Source of the DNA: Bacteroidales bacterium
GTDB taxonomy: Bacteria; Bacteroidota; Bacteroidia; Bacteroidales; Paludibacteraceae
NCBI GenBank assembly: GCA_015061165.1
Contig: SUXC01000001.1
Location: 124,001 to 188,000, forward strand
DNA: 64,000 nt
Direction: 5' to 3'
Shown: in pieces, positions 6,832-26,891 of the stretch
Position numbering within the stretch: position 1 is the first letter of the stretch
Layout of the letters: every line of letters begins with the position of its first letter
Notes under the pieces: model-generated
Database searches by the model: none
Seen by the model: only the letters and a program-made list of their open reading frames with translations
Told to the model about the DNA's origin: nothing
Program-made: the position numbers and the translations under genes

Positions 6832-7412
6832 TATTCGACAGGTGGATATTCGTCGTACTTCTGCCAATTGGCGTGGTATCGAGCATCAAGATCAATGATT
6901 TCCTTGACGAAAGGATAGCGGTCGCCATCAGGGCAGGAACTATGCTTTTCATTTAGCGTGAGAAGAATGAGCTGTGCATGGCACGCTCGCATATTCTGCA
7001 TAATGGAAAGATTCTCTTTGTAGAGAGACTGGATTTCTTCAGGAAGGCTATCGTGGTCAGGACGCTTGCCGACTTGAAAGGCTTCTGTTTTCTCAATGCG
7101 CTTTTTTTCTGATGTGGATTTTGCACCAGGCAATGGTTTGTCTAATTGGTGCTCTGCATTGATGGATGCTACTTTCTTTGTCATGCGCTGCACATCCTCG
7201 TGGGTGATTTCTGCAAGGCGCAGCGGTAAGAACTTGCTGAGTTGGTATTCAGCCATCTTCATATATTTGTTTGGCATGCGCTTGAAATTGTCAGCGAAGA
7301 TGGGGTTACGAACTAATTGGCGAATAAGCTTTGCACCAATCTCTCTATCGCGCTCAGCAGCTGGAGTGTTCAACCATTGCTGTAGCTGCTCTGTTAGTTT
7401 ACGGTCAATCAT
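6831..7412 (-). CDS. Hypothetical phage protein (193 aa)
   Basis: The protein is helical and highly charged. The N-terminus (MIDRKLTEQLQQWLNTPAAERD) suggests a helical binding domain, there is a basic linker near residue 95-110 (KSTSEKKRIEKTE), and the C-terminal half resembles coiled helices. It shares an operon with the PRTase (4-base gap) and the PLD-like gene (TAATG overlap). No family recognised. It could be a head-tail adaptor or an assembly factor. Confidence 0.5.
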   Translation of the reverse strand: MIDRKLTEQLQQWLNTPAAERDREIGAKLIRQLVRNPIFADNFKRMPNKYMKMAEYQLSKFLPLRLAEITHEDVQRMTKKVASINAEHQLDKPLPGAKSTSEKKRIEKTEAFQVGKRPDHDSLPEEIQSLYKENLSIMQNMRACHAQLILLTLNEKHSSCPDGDRYPFVKEIIDLDARYHANWQKYDEYPPVE

Positions 7413-7416
7413 AATT

Positions 7417-8079
7417 TTACTGGTTATTAACGCCTACAAAGTAAATACAATTTTTTCCAAAAGGCGCGAGTAGGCGATTCATCGCACCAAGAGTGGATCC
7501 TGTAGTAACAAAATCATCGAAAACGATGAGATTGTATTCCGGAGGGATATTGCCAGGAGCAAAGTCAACGCCGATGCGCTGCTTTGTTTTGGCAATGGCC
7601 ACATCTTCATGGTAGGGGATATTCAATCGGCGAGCGATATCTTGAGCAACCAGGCATGCAAAATTGCGCTGCTTGTGTCTTCGGCGAGGCGTAGTGACTA
7701 TGGCAAATCCTCCAGCATGGAGGTTTTGACCAAGCACGGAGCCGATAAGATGCGCAACACGCGATGCAAACAAAGGAATTTTCTCATCGTCCTCTTTGAT
7801 TTCTGCCAAGGTAGGACCTTTCACCGATCTACGCCATACTGCCATGACGCGTAAGCCGACCTTGGGAAACATGTGGCAATGTTCTTCAGATAAATCACAT
7901 CGAGCCAATTCTGCACTATTAGCATGCCATGCTTTTCGTGGACCTGCGTCCGCTAATAGATCCTTACGCAAAATTGGCTGATCGATTGAATGCAAAATGT
8001 CGGAGAGCGGAGATGTGTTTATATTCTCCAAACTCTCCGACATTGTTGATACATCCTGTATGGATGGCTCAAACAACAT
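7417..8079 (-). CDS. Phosphoribosyltransferase (ComF-like) encoded in a phage operon
   Basis: Near the C-terminus NLIVFDDFVTTGSTLGAM is the PRPP-binding loop of type I phosphoribosyltransferases (two acidic residues, then TTGST). Upstream, VTTPRRRHKQRNFACLVA resembles the ComF PP-loop region. The N-terminal 60 residues are extra and partly disordered. It starts at an ATG overlapping the stop of the tail-tube-like gene (TAATG). Enzymes of this fold use PRPP and a base or act in uptake. Its place among head genes suggests nucleotide salvage or DNA modification, but the substrate cannot be read from the sequence. Confidence 0.8.
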   Translation of the reverse strand: MLFEPSIQDVSTMSESLENINTSPLSDILHSIDQPILRKDLLADAGPRKAWHANSAELARCDLSEEHCHMFPKVGLRVMAVWRRSVKGPTLAEIKEDDEKIPLFASRVAHLIGSVLGQNLHAGGFAIVTTPRRRHKQRNFACLVAQDIARRLNIPYHEDVAIAKTKQRIGVDFAPGNIPPEYNLIVFDDFVTTGSTLGAMNRLLAPFGKNCIYFVGVNNQ

Positions 8080-8660
8080 TACTCTCCTTCAGTTACAGGT
8101 TCGTTGATGTTACCATCTTCAGTTGGGATAATACCCTCATAGAATGGGGCAGCGATGAGATCTGTGTGCTCCACATTGATAGTGGTATTTGCATTACCAG
8201 TGGATCCTTGACCAAGGTCTTGATTCACGGTGGCTTTACCTTGCCATTTCTCATTACCAATCATGCGGTATTTACCGTTCATGTCTTGAATAAGAACAAC
8301 GACATCACTGTTGTTGAGGTATGCAGAAGCCATCGTTGCTTTATCATCAACACCAGGGTGAACTGCAACCAACTTGTTGAGTTGGGTTTGGCTTGGTGCT
8401 TCTCCTTGAGGCTCAGAAGTAAGGCCTGACTTTTCAGCCAGCACATCAATACAATGGAATACTTTGTCAGCAGCCATCTCAAATGAGCCTTTCAAAACAG
8501 AACTGGTAGGACGACCAAATTCATCTACAGGCAAAGTAGGCCATTGGGTAATGTTTGACTTTGCCGTATAGTACAAACGGCGGCGAATACCAGGATACAC
8601 AGGTTTTCCCTCGCACCAAATAAGGCTACCCATAAGGGGTAAACATGATATTTGTGACAT
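8079..8660 (-). CDS. Probable phage tail-tube or head-decoration protein
   Basis: The C-terminal half reads VVVLIQDMNGKYRMIGNEKW, then a TVNQDLGQGSTG loop and a beta strand ending APFYEG. I associate this pattern with major tail-tube-like structural proteins of Bacteroidales phages. It has 193 residues, no signal peptide and no enzyme motif. It directly follows the major capsid gene with a 69-base gap containing a GC-rich hairpin, and overlaps the PRTase gene at TAATG. A structural protein is likely; the exact part is inferred. Confidence 0.55.
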   Translation of the reverse strand: MSQISCLPLMGSLIWCEGKPVYPGIRRRLYYTAKSNITQWPTLPVDEFGRPTSSVLKGSFEMAADKVFHCIDVLAEKSGLTSEPQGEAPSQTQLNKLVAVHPGVDDKATMASAYLNNSDVVVLIQDMNGKYRMIGNEKWQGKATVNQDLGQGSTGNANTTINVEHTDLIAAPFYEGIIPTEDGNINEPVTEGE

Positions 8661-8671
8661 ATTCAGTTTAA

Positions 8672-8720
8672 TTTAATAGGTTACTTAATAGCACCTCGCC
8701 ACCGCTATAGACAGCGAGGT
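8672..8720 (-). terminator. Hairpin between capsid and tail-tube-like genes
   Basis: GCACCTCGC and GCGAGGTGC flank a 19-base loop containing a further CCGCTATAGACAGCG fold. There is no long T-tract, so it could be a partial terminator or an RNA-processing site that lowers downstream expression relative to capsid. Confidence 0.5.
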
Positions 8721-8729
8721 GCGTTAATT

Positions 8730-9719
8730 TTACTCTTCGCCCTCTGCGGTTGCATCTGTGACTTTCAACTCTACCACGAGCAAGCGGCGAGGATCGATTG
8801 ACTCGAAATCAACACCAAAGAACATGGTAGCCACATAGTCCAAAACGAATGGGGAGTGTTTCTCAATGGTAACATCCTCGTTGTCGCCCAATTGGTCGCA
8901 ACCAATGAGCATATTCTCCTTGGTAGAGATATGGATGTACTTGGATTCAGCTTTGCTGGTCAGAGGAACGATTTGACATTTCTTGTTGGATCCTTCCAAG
9001 TAGATTTGTTCAAATCCTTGCACATACGGAGTAGCACTATGCAATACAGCATACGCATCATTGTATGCATCAAGAACATCTTGAGAAACATACATGAAAG
9101 TTTTTACACCACGCAACTCAGGACGAGCATTGCGGTATGCCTTTTTCAAGACATCCACTGCGTTCTCAGCGGTGATAGCCTCGGTGAGCTTCACATAGTT
9201 CTTCTTCTCAGCAGAGATTGCGCCTGCGGTGATCTCTTTTGCAGTGATGGTATCCCAGCCGTTGAACAATTCAGCAGATGTGGTACCATTGTCCACTCGA
9301 ACAGCAGACCAAAGAACACGGTTGAGGTTCTCGCTCAAGGATTTTGAAATAGAAGCAAGAACTTTTTTAGCGATGTCAGCATTCTTCATGCTCTCGCCTT
9401 TGGTCATGGCGTTTTGACCAATGATGAGAGTAGCAGCCGAGTTAGGCTCGAATGGCTGAACGACAGCACCGAAGAAAGTTTCCAATGTGCGGAAGTCAAG
9501 AACAGCATTCTTTTCGTGCTTCATGTCTGCCTTGTAAGGCGCGAATTGAGCATTGACAGACAATTGCCCAACAGCCTCTTTGTAGCGAATACCAAAGCGA
9601 ACGGTTGCAAAAGGAAGGATCTCTTCCAAGCCAATAATAGGCATCGCAAGAAACTCTTTGCGATATTTAACAGCAGCTGCTTGATAGTCAGCCAACTGTG
9701 GAGAAGTTAATTTTCCCAT
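8730..9719 (-). CDS. Phage major capsid protein
   Basis: The 329-residue protein has the usual size and layout of an HK97-fold capsid protein. It has a helical N-arm (MGKLTSPQLADYQAAAVKY), an E-loop-like segment, and a helical spine with AENAVDVLKKAYRNARPELR followed by the strand KTFMYVSQDVLDAYND. That strand-then-helix signature is typical of this fold in Bacteroidales phages. It is encoded straight after the protease-scaffold gene. The context is strong; the fold is inferred, not aligned. Confidence 0.8.
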   Translation of the reverse strand: MGKLTSPQLADYQAAAVKYRKEFLAMPIIGLEEILPFATVRFGIRYKEAVGQLSVNAQFAPYKADMKHEKNAVLDFRTLETFFGAVVQPFEPNSAATLIIGQNAMTKGESMKNADIAKKVLASISKSLSENLNRVLWSAVRVDNGTTSAELFNGWDTITAKEITAGAISAEKKNYVKLTEAITAENAVDVLKKAYRNARPELRGVKTFMYVSQDVLDAYNDAYAVLHSATPYVQGFEQIYLEGSNKKCQIVPLTSKAESKYIHISTKENMLIGCDQLGDNEDVTIEKHSPFVLDYVATMFFGVDFESIDPRRLLVVELKVTDATAEGEE

Positions 9720-12696: not shown

Positions 12697-13833
12697 TTAT
12701 TTTTTTGTAAGTTTCTTCAAATCATTTGTTATTGCTCGACGGTCTACTTCACTATATATTTGCGTAGTGGTAACTTTTTGATGTCCAAGCAACTTTTGAA
12801 TAGTGGTAATTGGCACATGCTGTTGAACTAACAATGTGCCAAAGGTATGGCGGCTACTATGAAAGGTGATTTTATTATCAACGCCTATCCTATCAAGAAT
12901 AGAGCGTAGAGTGCGATTTACAGCACAATTACTGCCGAGTGATTTGGTTAGAGATGAAATAGTACCATACTTGTTAATAATTTGTAGCAACTTTCCTCCA
13001 AATAATTCATTTATCGGAATATCTACCATATAGCCAGTCTTGCCCATATTTCTTGTTAGCCAACCATTAACTAAATGCTCATCACGCAAAGTAGTAATGT
13101 CAGAAAATCGTAAACCAGTATAACAACCTATAAGAAAAGCATCTCGCACTTTATCTTCATTACCATAGAGAGTAAGGCGCTCCAGCTTGTGCAATTGTTC
13201 AAAAGTCAAATATCCTTTTTTTGATATCATTTGCTGAATTCGAAATCTGTCAAATGGATTTGTACTTATAATATCTCTCTTCTTTGCTTCATTGAGAAGA
13301 GCACGCAGTAAATGAAGGCGGCTTATCCTCGTATTATGGGCGATTCCACTATCGCGGAGCCATTTATCATAAGATACGATATATTGGTAATCAATATCGG
13401 TAATTAGACTACCTTTTCGAAACTTCTCCATATTATTAAGAAGAGTTTGGTAGTTTTGTTTAGTAAGGTGCTTCCTATCGGATTGCTCAACAACTTGTAC
13501 ACCAAACTCTGACATTTTGGCTGCTGGAGAGATGTGTGCACGCACAGCTTCTTTAAGCATCGGAAGATTTACTTCTACACCACGCTTAATGTATTCAAGT
13601 TCAACTTGTTCAATATCTTGAATCATTTTGTACAGGGCGTAGTTTAACCCTTTTGCATTAGGCGTGTTAATAACAGAACCACGATAGAACTGCCCTGGAA
13701 GAAGATAGGTGTGCGTGGTAAAATAAATACGACGCCCAAGTTGTGAGCATTCGATTTCTACTAGTCCCTCTCCTAATCGATTGAGACGGTGGCTTCGGTT
13801 GTAAACCAATTTGTAGCGTACTTTTGTTAGCAT
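12697..13833 (-). CDS. Tyrosine recombinase (integrase or invertase)
   Basis: The 378-residue protein has an N-terminal arm-binding region, a SAM-like core-binding domain (about 100-200) and a catalytic domain. The catalytic residues are visible: TGLRFSD (Arg), HSSRHTF (His-x-x-Arg), LLGHQ (His) and TTQIYSEV (Tyr). It belongs to the Bacteroidetes phage/conjugative transposon type. It is placed in the middle of the prophage between lysis and tail-fibre genes, rather than at an end. Integration is the default role; DNA inversion at the tail-fibre locus is an alternative. Confidence 0.88.
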   Translation of the reverse strand: MLTKVRYKLVYNRSHRLNRLGEGLVEIECSQLGRRIYFTTHTYLLPGQFYRGSVINTPNAKGLNYALYKMIQDIEQVELEYIKRGVEVNLPMLKEAVRAHISPAAKMSEFGVQVVEQSDRKHLTKQNYQTLLNNMEKFRKGSLITDIDYQYIVSYDKWLRDSGIAHNTRISRLHLLRALLNEAKKRDIISTNPFDRFRIQQMISKKGYLTFEQLHKLERLTLYGNEDKVRDAFLIGCYTGLRFSDITTLRDEHLVNGWLTRNMGKTGYMVDIPINELFGGKLLQIINKYGTISSLTKSLGSNCAVNRTLRSILDRIGVDNKITFHSSRHTFGTLLVQQHVPITTIQKLLGHQKVTTTQIYSEVDRRAITNDLKKLTKK

Positions 13834-14010
13834 AGCATAAAATGTTTTTAAGTTGTTTTTATATGAGAAATAATTCTCACAAAATTAACACAAAAAACAC
13901 ACAAATGCAATGTTAACCACCTATAAATTACAAAATTAGTCCATCAGTATGTCAAGGATCAAGAAATATTGTTTGCCTATTGTTGCCATATATGTGCAAT
14001 AATATGAAAA
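13834..14010. other. AT-rich spacer between recombinase and tail fibre
   Basis: A GAGAAATAATTCTC hairpin is seen near 13865-13880. No promoter matching the consensus and no gene is evident. This is a possible place for a recombination site, but none can be shown. Confidence 0.4.
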
Positions 14011-15507
14011 TTATGCAACATCAGCAGGGTTGTAAATTCGTATATTGCCATCTGATTGCATTGCAACAAATTGCGTATAATCAGCACCTGTTGCAACTCC
14101 AAGTGGTTGATACCTATCACCATGAACACCTGCAAAAATATGAATATTAGAAGCATTTTCAGGCAAGCATATATCATGTACACCAGCATCTACATTGATT
14201 CTACTACAACCTTGTGAGAATGACATACGACGACAATTTTGTGAGAATGACATATAATGGCAATTTTGTGAGAATGACATACCCCAACAATCTTGTGAGA
14301 ATGACATATTATTGCAGTATTGTGAGAATGACATATCGTAACAACCTTGTGAGAATGACATACCCCAACAATCTTGTGAGAATGACATCTCGTAACAACC
14401 TTGTGAGAATGACATATTATTGCAGTATTGTGAGAATGACATATTGCCACAGTATTGTGAGAATGACATACTGCCACAATTTTGTGAGAATGTAAGTGCA
14501 TCACATCCTTGGTCTATAGAAATATTATAACAACGGTCTGCCATAATGATATTTCTATTATCAGAACCTATTGAGGAGTGAATGCAGGAAAGAGTCATAT
14601 TTATGCATTCTCCATCAATATGTGTAGAACCTAAAGCACGATATCTTGCATTATTAACAAATAACACTATATTGTTAAGACAAAAACAAGAATTGATATC
14701 ATTGTCAATGGTTTGTATGCAGGTAGCTGGCTTTAAAGACATATTGCCGAAATATCCTTTTTCACCATATCCTTCTCCAATGTTTGAACTATTAAAACCA
14801 ATTAGTGATGCATCAGTAGGAGATGTAGTTCTATCACCCAATGATATGGTGTAACAAAAAATACTATCAGATTCGTCAATAGATAAATTCATCATAGGAG
14901 CATTTATTCCTGCATATGTTCCTTCTATATCGTTGTGCAACCCACATTCATCATAAGTATAATACCTCTTAAATTGTATATTCTTGAAGTCATATGGGAA
15001 ATCATTCCCCCATTCGTCAATAAGGCGATAAATAACGCCAGTACCAGTTGAACTAGCCCACATAAAGCGTGTACTATCATTATTAAGACAGTACCATACT
15101 CGCCAGGCACTAAGATTACTATTTTTGAAATAACTACCTGAATTGCGCGATGTTTTAATAGCTTGAGCTTCTTCAGAAATGGAATTAATAGAAGTAGCCA
15201 TAACCAATAAATCAAATGGATGACCTGCGCTTTGAGCTTCAGGATCATTGGCTACTTTAGTTATATAATCAATAATTCTATACCACGCGCCAGGCACAAG
15301 TTTAGAATTATTGCGTAATTGGACTAGTTGAGAGTATGTTACAGAATGATATAATTGGATATTCGGTATTTCAGAACGAAGATTATCAATATCATTCTGA
15401 ACTTTCTCTAAATTCGCTTTGGCTTGCTTTGCCATTTTATAAGCAACCACTTCCATCCACTCGGATATCTTCTTGGACAGATATGTTTTTGTAACAAGAA
15501 ATATCAT
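14011..15507 (-). CDS. Tail-fibre or adhesin with 9-residue repeats
   Basis: After a helical N-terminus (about residues 20-45) and a 250-residue beta-rich region, the C-terminal part holds eleven tandem 9-residue repeats of the form MSFSQxCxx (about residues 342-440) followed by looser turns. Such short periodic repeats usually build a right-handed beta-helix or beta-solenoid, which suits a trimeric tail fibre. The conserved Cys in every turn is odd for a fibre. The protein ends IRIYNPADVA. It is downstream of two other probable fibre genes, and a small plus-strand RNA gene lies immediately upstream. Confidence 0.6.
   Translation of the reverse strand: MIFLVTKTYLSKKISEWMEVVAYKMAKQAKANLEKVQNDIDNLRSEIPNIQLYHSVTYSQLVQLRNNSKLVPGAWYRIIDYITKVANDPEAQSAGHPFDLLVMATSINSISEEAQAIKTSRNSGSYFKNSNLSAWRVWYCLNNDSTRFMWASSTGTGVIYRLIDEWGNDFPYDFKNIQFKRYYTYDECGLHNDIEGTYAGINAPMMNLSIDESDSIFCYTISLGDRTTSPTDASLIGFNSSNIGEGYGEKGYFGNMSLKPATCIQTIDNDINSCFCLNNIVLFVNNARYRALGSTHIDGECINMTLSCIHSSIGSDNRNIIMADRCYNISIDQGCDALTFSQNCGSMSFSQYCGNMSFSQYCNNMSFSQGCYEMSFSQDCWGMSFSQGCYDMSFSQYCNNMSFSQDCWGMSFSQNCHYMSFSQNCRRMSFSQGCSRINVDAGVHDICLPENASNIHIFAGVHGDRYQPLGVATGADYTQFVAMQSDGNIRIYNPADVA
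14203..14508. repeat. 27-bp tandem coding repeat (11 copies)
   Basis: TTGTGAGAATGACAT (plus strand) recurs every 27 bases from 14212 to 14455, ten times without a change, with an altered eleventh copy at 14482. The 12 bases between cores vary and encode x-Cys-x-x. Confidence 0.95.
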
Positions 15508-15555: not shown

Positions 15556-15637
15556 GTTTCCTGATGCTATCGGAAGTATCCAATTCGATGCTATCGGAAT
15601 TGCGCCATTACGATGCTATCGTAGTGGCATTTTTTTA
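15556..15637 (+). ncRNA. Candidate three-hairpin small RNA
   Basis: About 80 bases between a consensus promoter and a terminator, in the gap between two minus-strand genes. Three successive hairpins share the sequence GATGCTATCG with a GCT loop: 15558-15575, 15582-15601 and 15605-15627. Stem arms outside the shared core differ but still pair. The third is followed by seven Ts and acts as terminator. No start codon in a useful frame is seen. Target and role are unknown. Confidence 0.6.
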
Positions 15638-16258
15638 TTTACCCATATTCCAAACATCATTTGTATCGTCATACTGAGCTCGGAACATGGCGAAGTTGGA
15701 TATCTGCTTACCGTCTTTGATAAGACAGACACCACCATTTTTTCGTAGAATAGCGGAGATAGGAACAGGTGAACCTTCTTGATCACAATAACCAGTACCG
15801 AAAGAATCGTCTGTTACGAAGTCAATAAATTGTTCGTAGCCATCTACGGTGATTTCATAGTACGCATTTCCGCCTAAAATAAAATCAGGAGTTGTAGACT
15901 TCAATATAGGGCGGATAAGAGGTTCGCGATTGCTGATTGGCAAACGCAACACTTCATGCCAACCAGTGGTATGTGCTCGATGATTCTCATCGTTATCATA
16001 GTATGGACTATTATTGTTTCTGCGTACTTTTACGCGCTTTTTGCGTTGATATTGTAAGGATACATTAGACAAATCAAAATCCTTGTCAATAACTAGATAA
16101 ACATGAGAAATATCGTCATTGGTAGTTACATTCTTGGAAATGTAGCTATCAATGAAAACTAAATTGCTGTTTCCACCTGCAGCTTCTTGTGCAAGACGCT
16201 CACCAAGCTCTTTAGCAAATTTATTCAGATTGTCGGGGGTTGCTACTGTTTCTGCCAT
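15635..16258 (-). CDS. Hypothetical phage protein (207 aa), fibre-associated
   Basis: After a helical start (NLNKFAKELGERLAQEAAGG) the protein is beta-rich with a basic strand (RKKRVKVRRNNN). Its stop overlaps the T-tract of the candidate small RNA on the other strand. It lies 19 bases after the repeat-containing fibre gene 16278-17675. No known domain. It may be a fibre chaperone, a fibre tip or a neck protein. Confidence 0.5.
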   Translation of the reverse strand: MAETVATPDNLNKFAKELGERLAQEAAGGNSNLVFIDSYISKNVTTNDDISHVYLVIDKDFDLSNVSLQYQRKKRVKVRRNNNSPYYDNDENHRAHTTGWHEVLRLPISNREPLIRPILKSTTPDFILGGNAYYEITVDGYEQFIDFVTDDSFGTGYCDQEGSPVPISAILRKNGGVCLIKDGKQISNFAMFRAQYDDTNDVWNMGK

Positions 16259-16277
16259 AAGGTTAATATTTTTTTGG

Positions 16278-17675
16278 TTAGTTATTCAAATTGATTGCTT
16301 GTCGATATGTTTCTATCGTTAGATCTACGAGACGAGTAACCTCCTGATCAGAAAGAGGAGGGTACTCAGAGTGCCCAGAGAACATAGCTGTGTCTTCAGG
16401 AGAGTATGTTTGATTAACAATGCTCGTAAGGATATCATCATCAATAGGTATGATAATCTGAGCATCGTTATCAGGGAGAATACTCACATCTGTAATATCA
16501 GCAAAGACATGGGTATGTTGTGCCTGGGCATAGTCGCCAAGAGGCTGCTTGGAGTTAACAGCCGATTGCAATTCTTTAATATCTCCGATTGCATGCTCAA
16601 TATCTTGACTTGCATTACCTTTCCAATAATTAATTTCAGCAATCGCACCTTTAATAGATTGAGCGTGTTCTGCTGACATGTCCTCATTACCTATGGTTTG
16701 CTCAATATTATTGGCTTTGGTATTGACTTCATTAATAGCTTCAACCACAGCTTTTGCTGTAGTCTGTAGCGAAGCATCTGATTTGTCCTGCTTGGAGTTA
16801 ACAGCCGATTGCAATTCTTTAATATCTCCGATTGCATGCTCAATATCTTGACTTGCATTACCTTTCCAATAATTAATTTCAGCAATCGCACCTTTAATAG
16901 ATTGAGCGTGTTCTGCTGACATGTCCTCATTACCTATGGTTTGCTCAATATTATTGGCTTTGGTATTGACTTCATTGATAGCACTAACCACAGTTTTTGC
17001 TGTAGTCTGTAGTGAAGAATCTGACTTATCTTGCTTAGAGGTGAGATTTTCTGGATATACATAGCAATGTTCCTCCCACTCACTCCAACTACCATCTCCT
17101 ACCTTTGTACGTCGTTTCCAACCATCGTTATTGATAAGCGTTTGAATATATGTGTTTGTGGATGGTCTTCCTAGCATATGACGACCACGATTGAAAGATA
17201 CAGTAAAGGTATACCACTCAGTATTTCTTAATGGAATACTTAAACATACACTATACATTCCTTTATCTGTATAACTCTCGAGGTCGGTAGTGGTATTAGT
17301 AATATAGAGGGTATTATCTACAGGCTGTCCAGTAACATCTTCCCATAATGGAGCATTATATATGTATATGCGGGATTTGTCTGGACTATTAACAATATAG
17401 ATGATACCTTTTTCAGGAGTAACTTCATCAAACACTCCATTTTGATAGAGGAACAGGAAACCATCTACTCCATCTGATGAAGTTGGTTCTATCATATAAA
17501 GTGCTCCCTCTTGTGGTGCTTCTACATCGTCAATAGAAGCGATAGAGATAGCATTAACTATTTCTTTTTCGCTTGGATGCACAATCTCTTGAACGCCTAA
17601 AATAGCATCTTTGACATTCTTCCACAGCTGCTGTAGAGCTCTATCGAGGCGTCGCATTGTAACAATAACTAACAT
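16278..17675 (-). CDS. Tail-fibre protein with duplicated coiled-coil segment
   Basis: Residues 1-25 form a helix, residues about 40-200 a beta-rich region ending with the GDGSWSEWEE motif common in fibre and pyocin knob-type domains, then two nearly identical 81-residue helical units (from SKQDKSDSSLQTTAK on), and a C-terminal region with QHTHVFADITD, a HxH motif that can hold iron in phage needle tips. This is the layout of a long side-tail fibre. It starts 3 bases after the 17679-18182 stop. Confidence 0.7.
   Translation of the reverse strand: MLVIVTMRRLDRALQQLWKNVKDAILGVQEIVHPSEKEIVNAISIASIDDVEAPQEGALYMIEPTSSDGVDGFLFLYQNGVFDEVTPEKGIIYIVNSPDKSRIYIYNAPLWEDVTGQPVDNTLYITNTTTDLESYTDKGMYSVCLSIPLRNTEWYTFTVSFNRGRHMLGRPSTNTYIQTLINNDGWKRRTKVGDGSWSEWEEHCYVYPENLTSKQDKSDSSLQTTAKTVVSAINEVNTKANNIEQTIGNEDMSAEHAQSIKGAIAEINYWKGNASQDIEHAIGDIKELQSAVNSKQDKSDASLQTTAKAVVEAINEVNTKANNIEQTIGNEDMSAEHAQSIKGAIAEINYWKGNASQDIEHAIGDIKELQSAVNSKQPLGDYAQAQHTHVFADITDVSILPDNDAQIIIPIDDDILTSIVNQTYSPEDTAMFSGHSEYPPLSDQEVTRLVDLTIETYRQAINLNN
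16545..17030. repeat. 243-bp tandem duplication in the fibre gene
   Basis: CTGCTTGGAGTTAACAGCC begins at 16545 and again at 16788, and the following 243 bases are nearly identical. The unit encodes 81 residues, so length change by recombination would stay in frame. Confidence 0.9.
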
Positions 17676-19276: not shown

Positions 19277-19323
19277 GAAACAAAAAGAAACAAAAAGAAA
19301 CAAAAAGAAACAAAAAGAAACAA
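19277..19323. repeat. Five 10-bp GAAACAAAAA repeats
   Basis: GAAAC occurs at 19277, 19287, 19297, 19307 and 19317 with A-runs between. Further copies lie at about 19254, 19265 and 19386. The 10-bp period places each copy on the same face of the helix, which favours cooperative protein binding or bending. Confidence 0.9.
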
Positions 19324-24163: not shown

Positions 24164-24523
24164 TTAACTTTTGTGAATATCTCCCATAGTAGTACTTGCG
24201 TCGCCTTCTATTGACTGGCAATGAATATTACCGCAATTAACATTAGCGTCTCCCTTTATATTTCCATCTACATCAACGCTGCCGCAGTTTACTTTAACAC
24301 GATTAGCGTTGCCGTGTATATGGATCTTCTCGCATTGCTCCACCTCCAAGCGTTCTACATCTCCTTGGATGTTAATAGTTATCTCTGGATAGTCAGACGG
24401 GATAACTTGCTCTGAACCGTTGATGAGAATTTTTCCGCCCTTGATAACCATAGATTTAACAGAGCCAAATGTAGAACCATAGATTTTACCTACTGGACCG
24501 TTGAATACAATTTTGTCAGACAT
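24164..24523 (-). CDS. Small beta-solenoid-like phage protein
   Basis: The ATG at 24523 (MSDKIVFNGPVGKIYGS) is favoured. From residue 50 the protein is a run of short Val/Ile/Gly/Asn strands with repeats such as VKVNCGSVDVDGNIKGD and VNCGNIHCQSIEGD, suggesting a small beta-helix similar in style to bactofilin or polymer-forming proteins. There is no signal peptide. Encoded in the early operon, so probably not a virion part. Function unknown. Confidence 0.5.
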   Translation of the reverse strand: MSDKIVFNGPVGKIYGSTFGSVKSMVIKGGKILINGSEQVIPSDYPEITINIQGDVERLEVEQCEKIHIHGNANRVKVNCGSVDVDGNIKGDANVNCGNIHCQSIEGDASTTMGDIHKS

Positions 24524-24534
24524 AATCACTTAAA

Positions 24535-26476: not shown

Positions 26477-26520
26477 GACATATTTGGGACATATTTGGGA
26501 CATATTTGGGACATATCTGC
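26477..26520. repeat. Four 11-bp repeats (GACATATTTGG)
   Basis: Copies start at 26477, 26488, 26499 and 26510, the last one altered. The 11-bp spacing keeps them nearly in helical phase. Confidence 0.9.
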
Positions 26521-26813: not shown

Positions 26814-26838
26814 GAGTAGTCTTTCCACCAAGACTCTC
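26814..26838 (+). other. Hairpin upstream of the junction terminator
   Basis: GAG-t-AGTCTT / AAGACT-CTC with a TCCACC loop. Its AGTCTT arm could instead pair with AAGACT-type sequence in the next hairpin. Confidence 0.5.
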
Positions 26839-26854
26839 GCCATCCCGACTAACC

Positions 26855-26891
26855 AAAGAAAGACTTACGGATTCGTAAGTCTTTCTTTTTT
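26855..26891 (+). terminator. Strong 15-bp stem terminator
   Basis: AAAGAAAGACTTACG and CGTAAGTCTTTCTTT pair perfectly around GATT and run into more Ts. It isolates the prophage side from the lipoprotein gene. Confidence 0.8.

Follow-up and report, generated by a model that had tools for sequence, protein, structure and literature searches.

A 498-aa open reading frame containing a run of short repeats is located on the minus strand of the 64,000-nt stretch of DNA analyzed here (hereafter the window; Bacteroidales bacterium, family Paludibacteraceae; assembly GCA_015061165.1, contig SUXC01000001.1, positions 124,001 to 188,000). The gene lies among the structural genes of a prophage of approximately 39.5 kb and is followed by a tyrosine recombinase gene. 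The features are as follows (window coordinates).

12697-13833, minus strand: tyrosine recombinase, 378 aa, 177 bp downstream of the array gene; proposed shuffling enzyme.
13870-13888, minus strand: putative anchor site, TTAATT-TTGTGAG-AATTAT in the fibre sense, with inverted arms around a 7-bp spacer; it carries the array core in inverted orientation (ATTCTCACAA on the plus strand at 13873-13882).
13971-14010, no strand assigned: imperfect hairpin immediately after the stop codon of the array gene; in relatives of the recombinase-linked lineage, an alignment of the intergenic regions shows a conserved inverted repeat with the consensus TTGCATATTGTTGC...GCAACAATATGCAA.
14011-15507, minus strand: array-bearing gene (protein P0001, 498 aa), a probable tail fibre with a conserved N-terminal domain (YRI-DY ... 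SAGH-FD ... YDFKNIQFKR), degenerate solenoid units, 11 homogenised units and a C-terminal cap.
14014-14199, minus strand: C-terminal cap, which together with the last variable tetrapeptide (GCSR) is expected to stay fixed to the last core.
14200-14496, minus strand: array of eleven 27-bp units (nonapeptide MSFSQxCxx).
14212-14490, minus strand: eleven copies of the putative recombination core TTCTCACAA, the first at 14482-14490 and then every 27 bp down to 14212-14220.
15635-17675, minus strand: two upstream genes of the same operon (15635-16258 and 16278-17675, the latter with the phage tail repeat PF12789), which are not conserved with the module in most relatives.
26835-26855, plus strand: right prophage end, an exact 21-bp copy of the tRNA-Pro 3' end.

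The array and its genomic context

An earlier note had placed eleven 27-bp repeats at 14203-14508, and this observation was confirmed, the array lying a few bases away at 14200-14496. Ten units start with the identical 15-mer ATGTCATTCTCACAA (MSFSQ), whereas the eleventh, nearest the N-terminus, reads CTTACATTCTCACAA (LTFSQ), so that a 10-bp block, ATTCTCACAA, is common to all 11. Tandem Repeats Finder detected the array independently (period 27, 10.8 copies, score 267). The remaining 12 bases encode x-Cys-x-x and read, in protein order, NCGS YCGN YCNN GCYE DCWG GCYD YCNN DCWG NCHY NCRR GCSR; two 12-mers recur exactly (YCNN twice and DCWG twice). Based on codon usage in neighbouring phage genes, one unit uses this synonymous combination with a p of about 0.01, and ten identical units are far beyond chance (about 1e-18 under independence). 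To look for silent donor arrays, we searched the 2.47-Mb genome with the 15-mer core and found no other exact copy, the only site with one mismatch being on another contig. Moreover, the TTCGGGAAC pattern of related arrays occurred in 9 of 358 genomes of the family, and the places listed were array clusters.

The ends of the prophage are an exact 21-bp repeat of the tRNA-Pro 3' end, found at the left end at G000:C23:111388-111408 of the same genome, beside a dedicated integrase, and at 26835-26855 of the window. Tape measure, terminase, ClpP-type head protease and amidase genes are recognisable. The prophage also encodes a small protein (24164-24529) with a weak match to the FapA beta-solenoid domain and contains perfect short tandem repeats at 19277-19323 (10 bp, 4.7 copies) and 26477-26516 (11 bp, 3.6 copies). 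In the gap upstream of the array gene (15563-15621) there are about 2.4 direct copies of a 25-bp unit beginning GATGCTATCGGAA. The upstream tail gene 16278-17675 contains a 243-bp tandem duplication (16545-17040, 95% identical) encoding a repeated coiled-coil-like stretch, and its alignment to the related locus L045 suggests that copy number may differ there.

Relatives of the array gene

Profile searches placed P0001 in no Pfam or NCBIfam family and no useful PHROG family, and tblastn returned no match for P0001 in the phage collection searched; the relative at locus L050 gave only a weak hit in Pseudomonas phage TC7. However, 44 viral and 20 genomic relatives were identified in viral contigs and in genomes of Bacteroidales (some binned as Clostridia); related loci and genomes are hereafter designated L and G, respectively, followed by a number. 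The nearest named relative, 98.4% identical over 2.3 kb, is a Paludibacteraceae MAG from roe deer. The relatives share a conserved N-terminal domain and C-terminal nonapeptide arrays, mostly NTFGNxCxx. The motif (MSFSQxCxx or NTFGNxCxx) is not the calcium-binding GGxGxDxUx of RTX nonapeptide repeats, and no Pfam match was obtained. A profile hit to the FNIP/FGxxFN leucine-rich repeat protein CroV588 (6nyr; E 2.9e-19) was rejected as driven by composition, as it covered several low-accuracy stretches (0.40-0.66) and the 22-residue repeat has a different period.

The structure of the protein was predicted with AlphaFold2. The full-length model had a mean pLDDT of 56 and weak Foldseek matches; the repeat region was predicted with one strand per nonapeptide at moderate confidence (pLDDT about 50-80), and the nearest solved folds were parallel beta-helices, including tailspikes (VIA-align Z up to 12). 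In this model the core codes for the constant strand and turn and the cassette for x-C-x-x; that these residues form a receptor-facing surface is inferred.

Arrays vary by whole cassettes

To determine whether the arrays vary, we compared relatives with near-identical flanks. L061 and L062 are 99.7% identical over 7.2 kb and 99.4% identical over 3.5 kb on the other side, yet they have 7 and 5 units with different content; L063 and L064 (99.7%) likewise differ. Identical 12-mers recur between them, so variation moves whole cassettes. Although variable codons are often NNY and lie in a probable fibre, a diversity-generating retroelement is a remote possibility, since no reverse transcriptase was found within the window (three occur in the genome, all outside it) and variation is by whole cassettes, not by adenine-directed substitutions. 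In arrays of the TTCGGGAAC type, the AAYACR codons are linked to the preceding 12-mer (61 of 84 concordant; shuffles mean 46%, maximum 61%) but not to the following one (41%). This indicates that the mobile piece is 18 bp and that the joints fall in the 9-bp block.

A tyrosine recombinase and an inverted core copy accompany the array

The gene downstream of the array encodes a tyrosine recombinase (PF00589, 64.7 bits, E 1.2e-17; PF13102, E 5.4e-16) in which the catalytic residues R242, K265, H325, R328, H351 and Y360 are invariant in 13 relatives. A recombinase 46-85% identical to it (37% in L176) sits next to the array gene in many otherwise different phages. Between L004 and L006 (about 7034-9130), the fibre 3' end, site, recombinase and next gene are 88% identical between flanks of about 98%, suggesting that the module was exchanged as a block.

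We next examined the region between the two genes. Among 44 related loci with about 14 core types, 41 carry their own core inverted there and none carries a direct copy, whereas foreign cores match in 5 of 559 tests. Of the three others, L163 and L164 match their site in only 8 of 9 bases, and L021 was scored with a wrong core string, its true core (CTCTTGGGG) being matched. The arms around the spacer stay similar in most lineages (TTAGTT/AACTAA, TTAATT/AATTAT) while the spacer follows the array, the pattern expected if site and array cores are strand-exchange partners. Two related pairs show single-base synonymous changes made in every unit and in the site: the window has TTCTCACAA with site TTGTGAGAA and L145 has TTCTCGCAA with TTGCGAGAA (TCA to TCG in 11 units), and L158 (TTCTCCGGA) and L160 (TTCTCTGGA) each have matching sites. 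The site remains inverted relative to the array even where the recombinase gene is flipped (L016, L035, L047, L053, L138, L150 and L152), so the constraint is between site and array.

Furthermore, codons 3-5 are DNA-identical in 344 of 345 units of recombinase-linked arrays, while codons 1-2 agree in only 212 of 330; in arrays without a nearby recombinase the block agrees in 93 of 109. These figures are descriptive, as units of related phages are not independent. Similar nonapeptide arrays in L005, L007, L008, L027, L031, L049, L050 and L059 had no recombinase or inverted core within about 3-6 kb; the solenoid does not need the proposed shuffling module.

The PHROG annotation of the recombinase is "integrase", and the architecture of the intergenic site is like that of an attachment core, which raised the possibility that the site is an attP and that the array cores are chance or secondary att sites. 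We consider this very unlikely: the prophage is bounded by the tRNA-Pro repeat with its own integrase at that end, the present gene is mid-genome, and an attP would not need 3-19 copies of its core inside a fibre gene that co-vary with it.

Cassettes are permuted without loss in a relative

IMG/VR contig 3300037454_000805 carries the same array at both ends (L028 and L152). The 86-nt 5' and 127-nt 3' flanks are identical, and the 14 movable cassettes are the same set, each present once, in the order 6,11,7,10,14,2,1,12,4,9,8,3,5,13 with no old adjacency left, whereas the last cassette stays with the C-terminus. The 127-nt overlap suggests an assembler k-mer, and we infer that the two orders are probably two variants in one sample; the constant context between cassettes is only about 15 bp, so mis-ordering by assembly is unlikely. 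Conservative permutation is documented in this contig only, and the window's own array has one order in both available assemblies, which may come from the same sample. In the window's own lineage, contigs of G061 and G180 end at the last base of a core, and the G180 3' contig starts at the first base of a core and runs unbroken through the site into the recombinase, as would be expected from a population with many, mostly uninverted, orders. A run of N inside the array of the recombinase-linked locus L052 (about 6911-6946) is another sign that assemblies fail in these arrays.

Ordinary RecA-dependent unequal crossing over, replication slippage or gene conversion, with the recombinase as a bystander, could account for the different copy numbers between relatives with 99.7% identical flanks and for the duplicated cassettes that are common in these arrays, and a shared core provides some homology. 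However, it does not explain the co-varying inverted core, the purity of the core but not of neighbouring codons, the link to the recombinase, or a reordering with intact content, and unequal crossover never gave a permuted but intact array in 20,000 simulated trials. We therefore regard it as improbable as the main process, although the duplicated cassettes in several arrays show that non-conservative events also occur.

A model for shuffling of the fibre repeats

Taken together, these results lead us to propose, with fair confidence, that the array is the variable part of a self-shuffling phage fibre. In this model, each 27-bp unit carries a 9-10 bp recombination core in frame, which also encodes the structurally constant F-S-Q (F-G-N in most relatives), and an 18-bp cassette holding the variable residues. 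The neighbouring recombinase would exchange strands at the core, probably by inversions anchored on its complete, arm-bearing site between the two genes. Inversion would lead to a stop within a few codons in most loci (FSQN-stop in the window) and within at most about 40 codons in the others with a resolved frame, and reversion through the arm-bearing junctions would restore the gene. Occasional reversion at another core would move blocks of cassettes, permuting their order without loss while the first core stays with the N-terminus and the last cassette with the C-terminal cap. Slower unequal exchange and exchange with other phages would change copy number and vocabulary. The analysis itself establishes the two-gene module and its association with the arrays, the co-varying cores, the DNA-level purity of the core, the conservative permutation in one relative and the contig breaks at core edges; that this enzyme catalyses the exchange, that inversion is the route and that the product changes host recognition are inferences.

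To evaluate this model, we simulated a process in which the anchored end always takes part. Fully random order with no loss of cassettes was obtained, with 94% leftover-free arrays at a 100-fold preference for the arm-bearing junction and 13% with none. The preference is an assumption, made because no inverted or partly inverted locus was seen among about 40 loci, all in the same orientation; a strong arm preference, or another topology, is thus required. A search for the inverted-state junction in 178 genomes of the genus gave one match (G118), inside an array-gene region. In addition, the array core has one constant and one variable flank, unlike a standard site with two arms. Alternatively, the same recombinase may excise blocks between directly repeated cores and reinsert them elsewhere, as in integrons. 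The direct orientation of the cores, the conservative permutation and the lack of inverted intermediates are consistent with this possibility, which remains open but appears unlikely: blocks of a few units would be circles of 27 to a few hundred bp, and lost circles should shrink the set, yet all 14 cassettes were kept through a complete reordering, and no role is given to the conserved inverted anchor.

The interpretation in the earlier note, that a perfect core with variable partners suggests ongoing expansion, gene conversion or directed variation in a receptor-binding fibre, is partly supported. The pattern does reflect active variation, and directed variation is close to our conclusion; simple expansion or mutation is not the main process, because the cassettes are conserved and reordered. 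The note missed the recombinase and the inverted core beside it, which in our model explain why the core is fixed at the DNA level. That the protein is a receptor-binding fibre is inferred from its place in the late operon, the beta-solenoid prediction and the variability.

Comparison with known systems

Outside subscription papers and preprints, literature searches on nonapeptide repeats, shufflons, invertons and phage tyrosine recombinases found the Rin shufflon of Bifidobacterium prophages (PMC6109161) as the nearest report. Rin likewise has a phage-encoded tyrosine recombinase next to the receptor-binding-protein gene, a short (11-bp) asymmetric crossover sequence, one site inside the coding sequence, a constant N-terminus and a variable C-terminal part. 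However, Rin exchanges alternative 95-100-residue C-termini lying as gene-sized segments between inverted sites, whereas here the sites are inside every 27-bp repeat of one ORF, all direct, with a single inverted site outside; no silent alternative C-terminus exists, and the product is a new order of short structural units. The present locus resembles a shufflon in its adjacent dedicated recombinase, in its several short sites (inferred to be crossover sites), one of them inverted, and in the rearranged variants found in a relative, though not in the window phage itself. It lacks the exchange of alternative C-terminal segments onto a constant N-terminus and is therefore not a standard shufflon.

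The Min, Cin and Gin systems of coliphages (described in PMC6109161) also change tail fibres by site-specific recombination, but they use serine invertases, a different site type and gene-scale segments without a tandem repeat array. Integrons have a tyrosine recombinase, a primary site near its gene and an array of cassettes whose order changes. Integron cassettes are separate genes with folded attC sites, whereas here the cassettes are 18-bp pieces of one reading frame, the 27-bp units hold only 9-10 bp cores, and the primary site is inverted relative to the array. Tsr-type tyrosine recombinases of Bacteroides (cited in PMC6109161) act on surface-protein loci in the same bacterial order. These enzymes invert promoters or genes between two inverted repeats and are not known to act on a repeat array.

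It is about as likely as not that the locus represents a categorically new kind of variation system, in which every structural repeat of a phage protein carries its own recombination site in frame, so that one recombinase with one anchor site permutes the repeats of a single gene without losing any (for the window, 10 movable cassettes and about 900,000 distinct orders), generating combinatorial fibre surfaces. If the proposed shuffling is true, phages of gut and rumen Bacteroidales have a compact combinatorial generator of fibre variants, in which the core that the protein fold needs is also the DNA signal the recombinase needs. This would explain why assemblies of these phages break in their fibre genes and would link repeat-protein evolution, site-specific recombination and host range in one locus.
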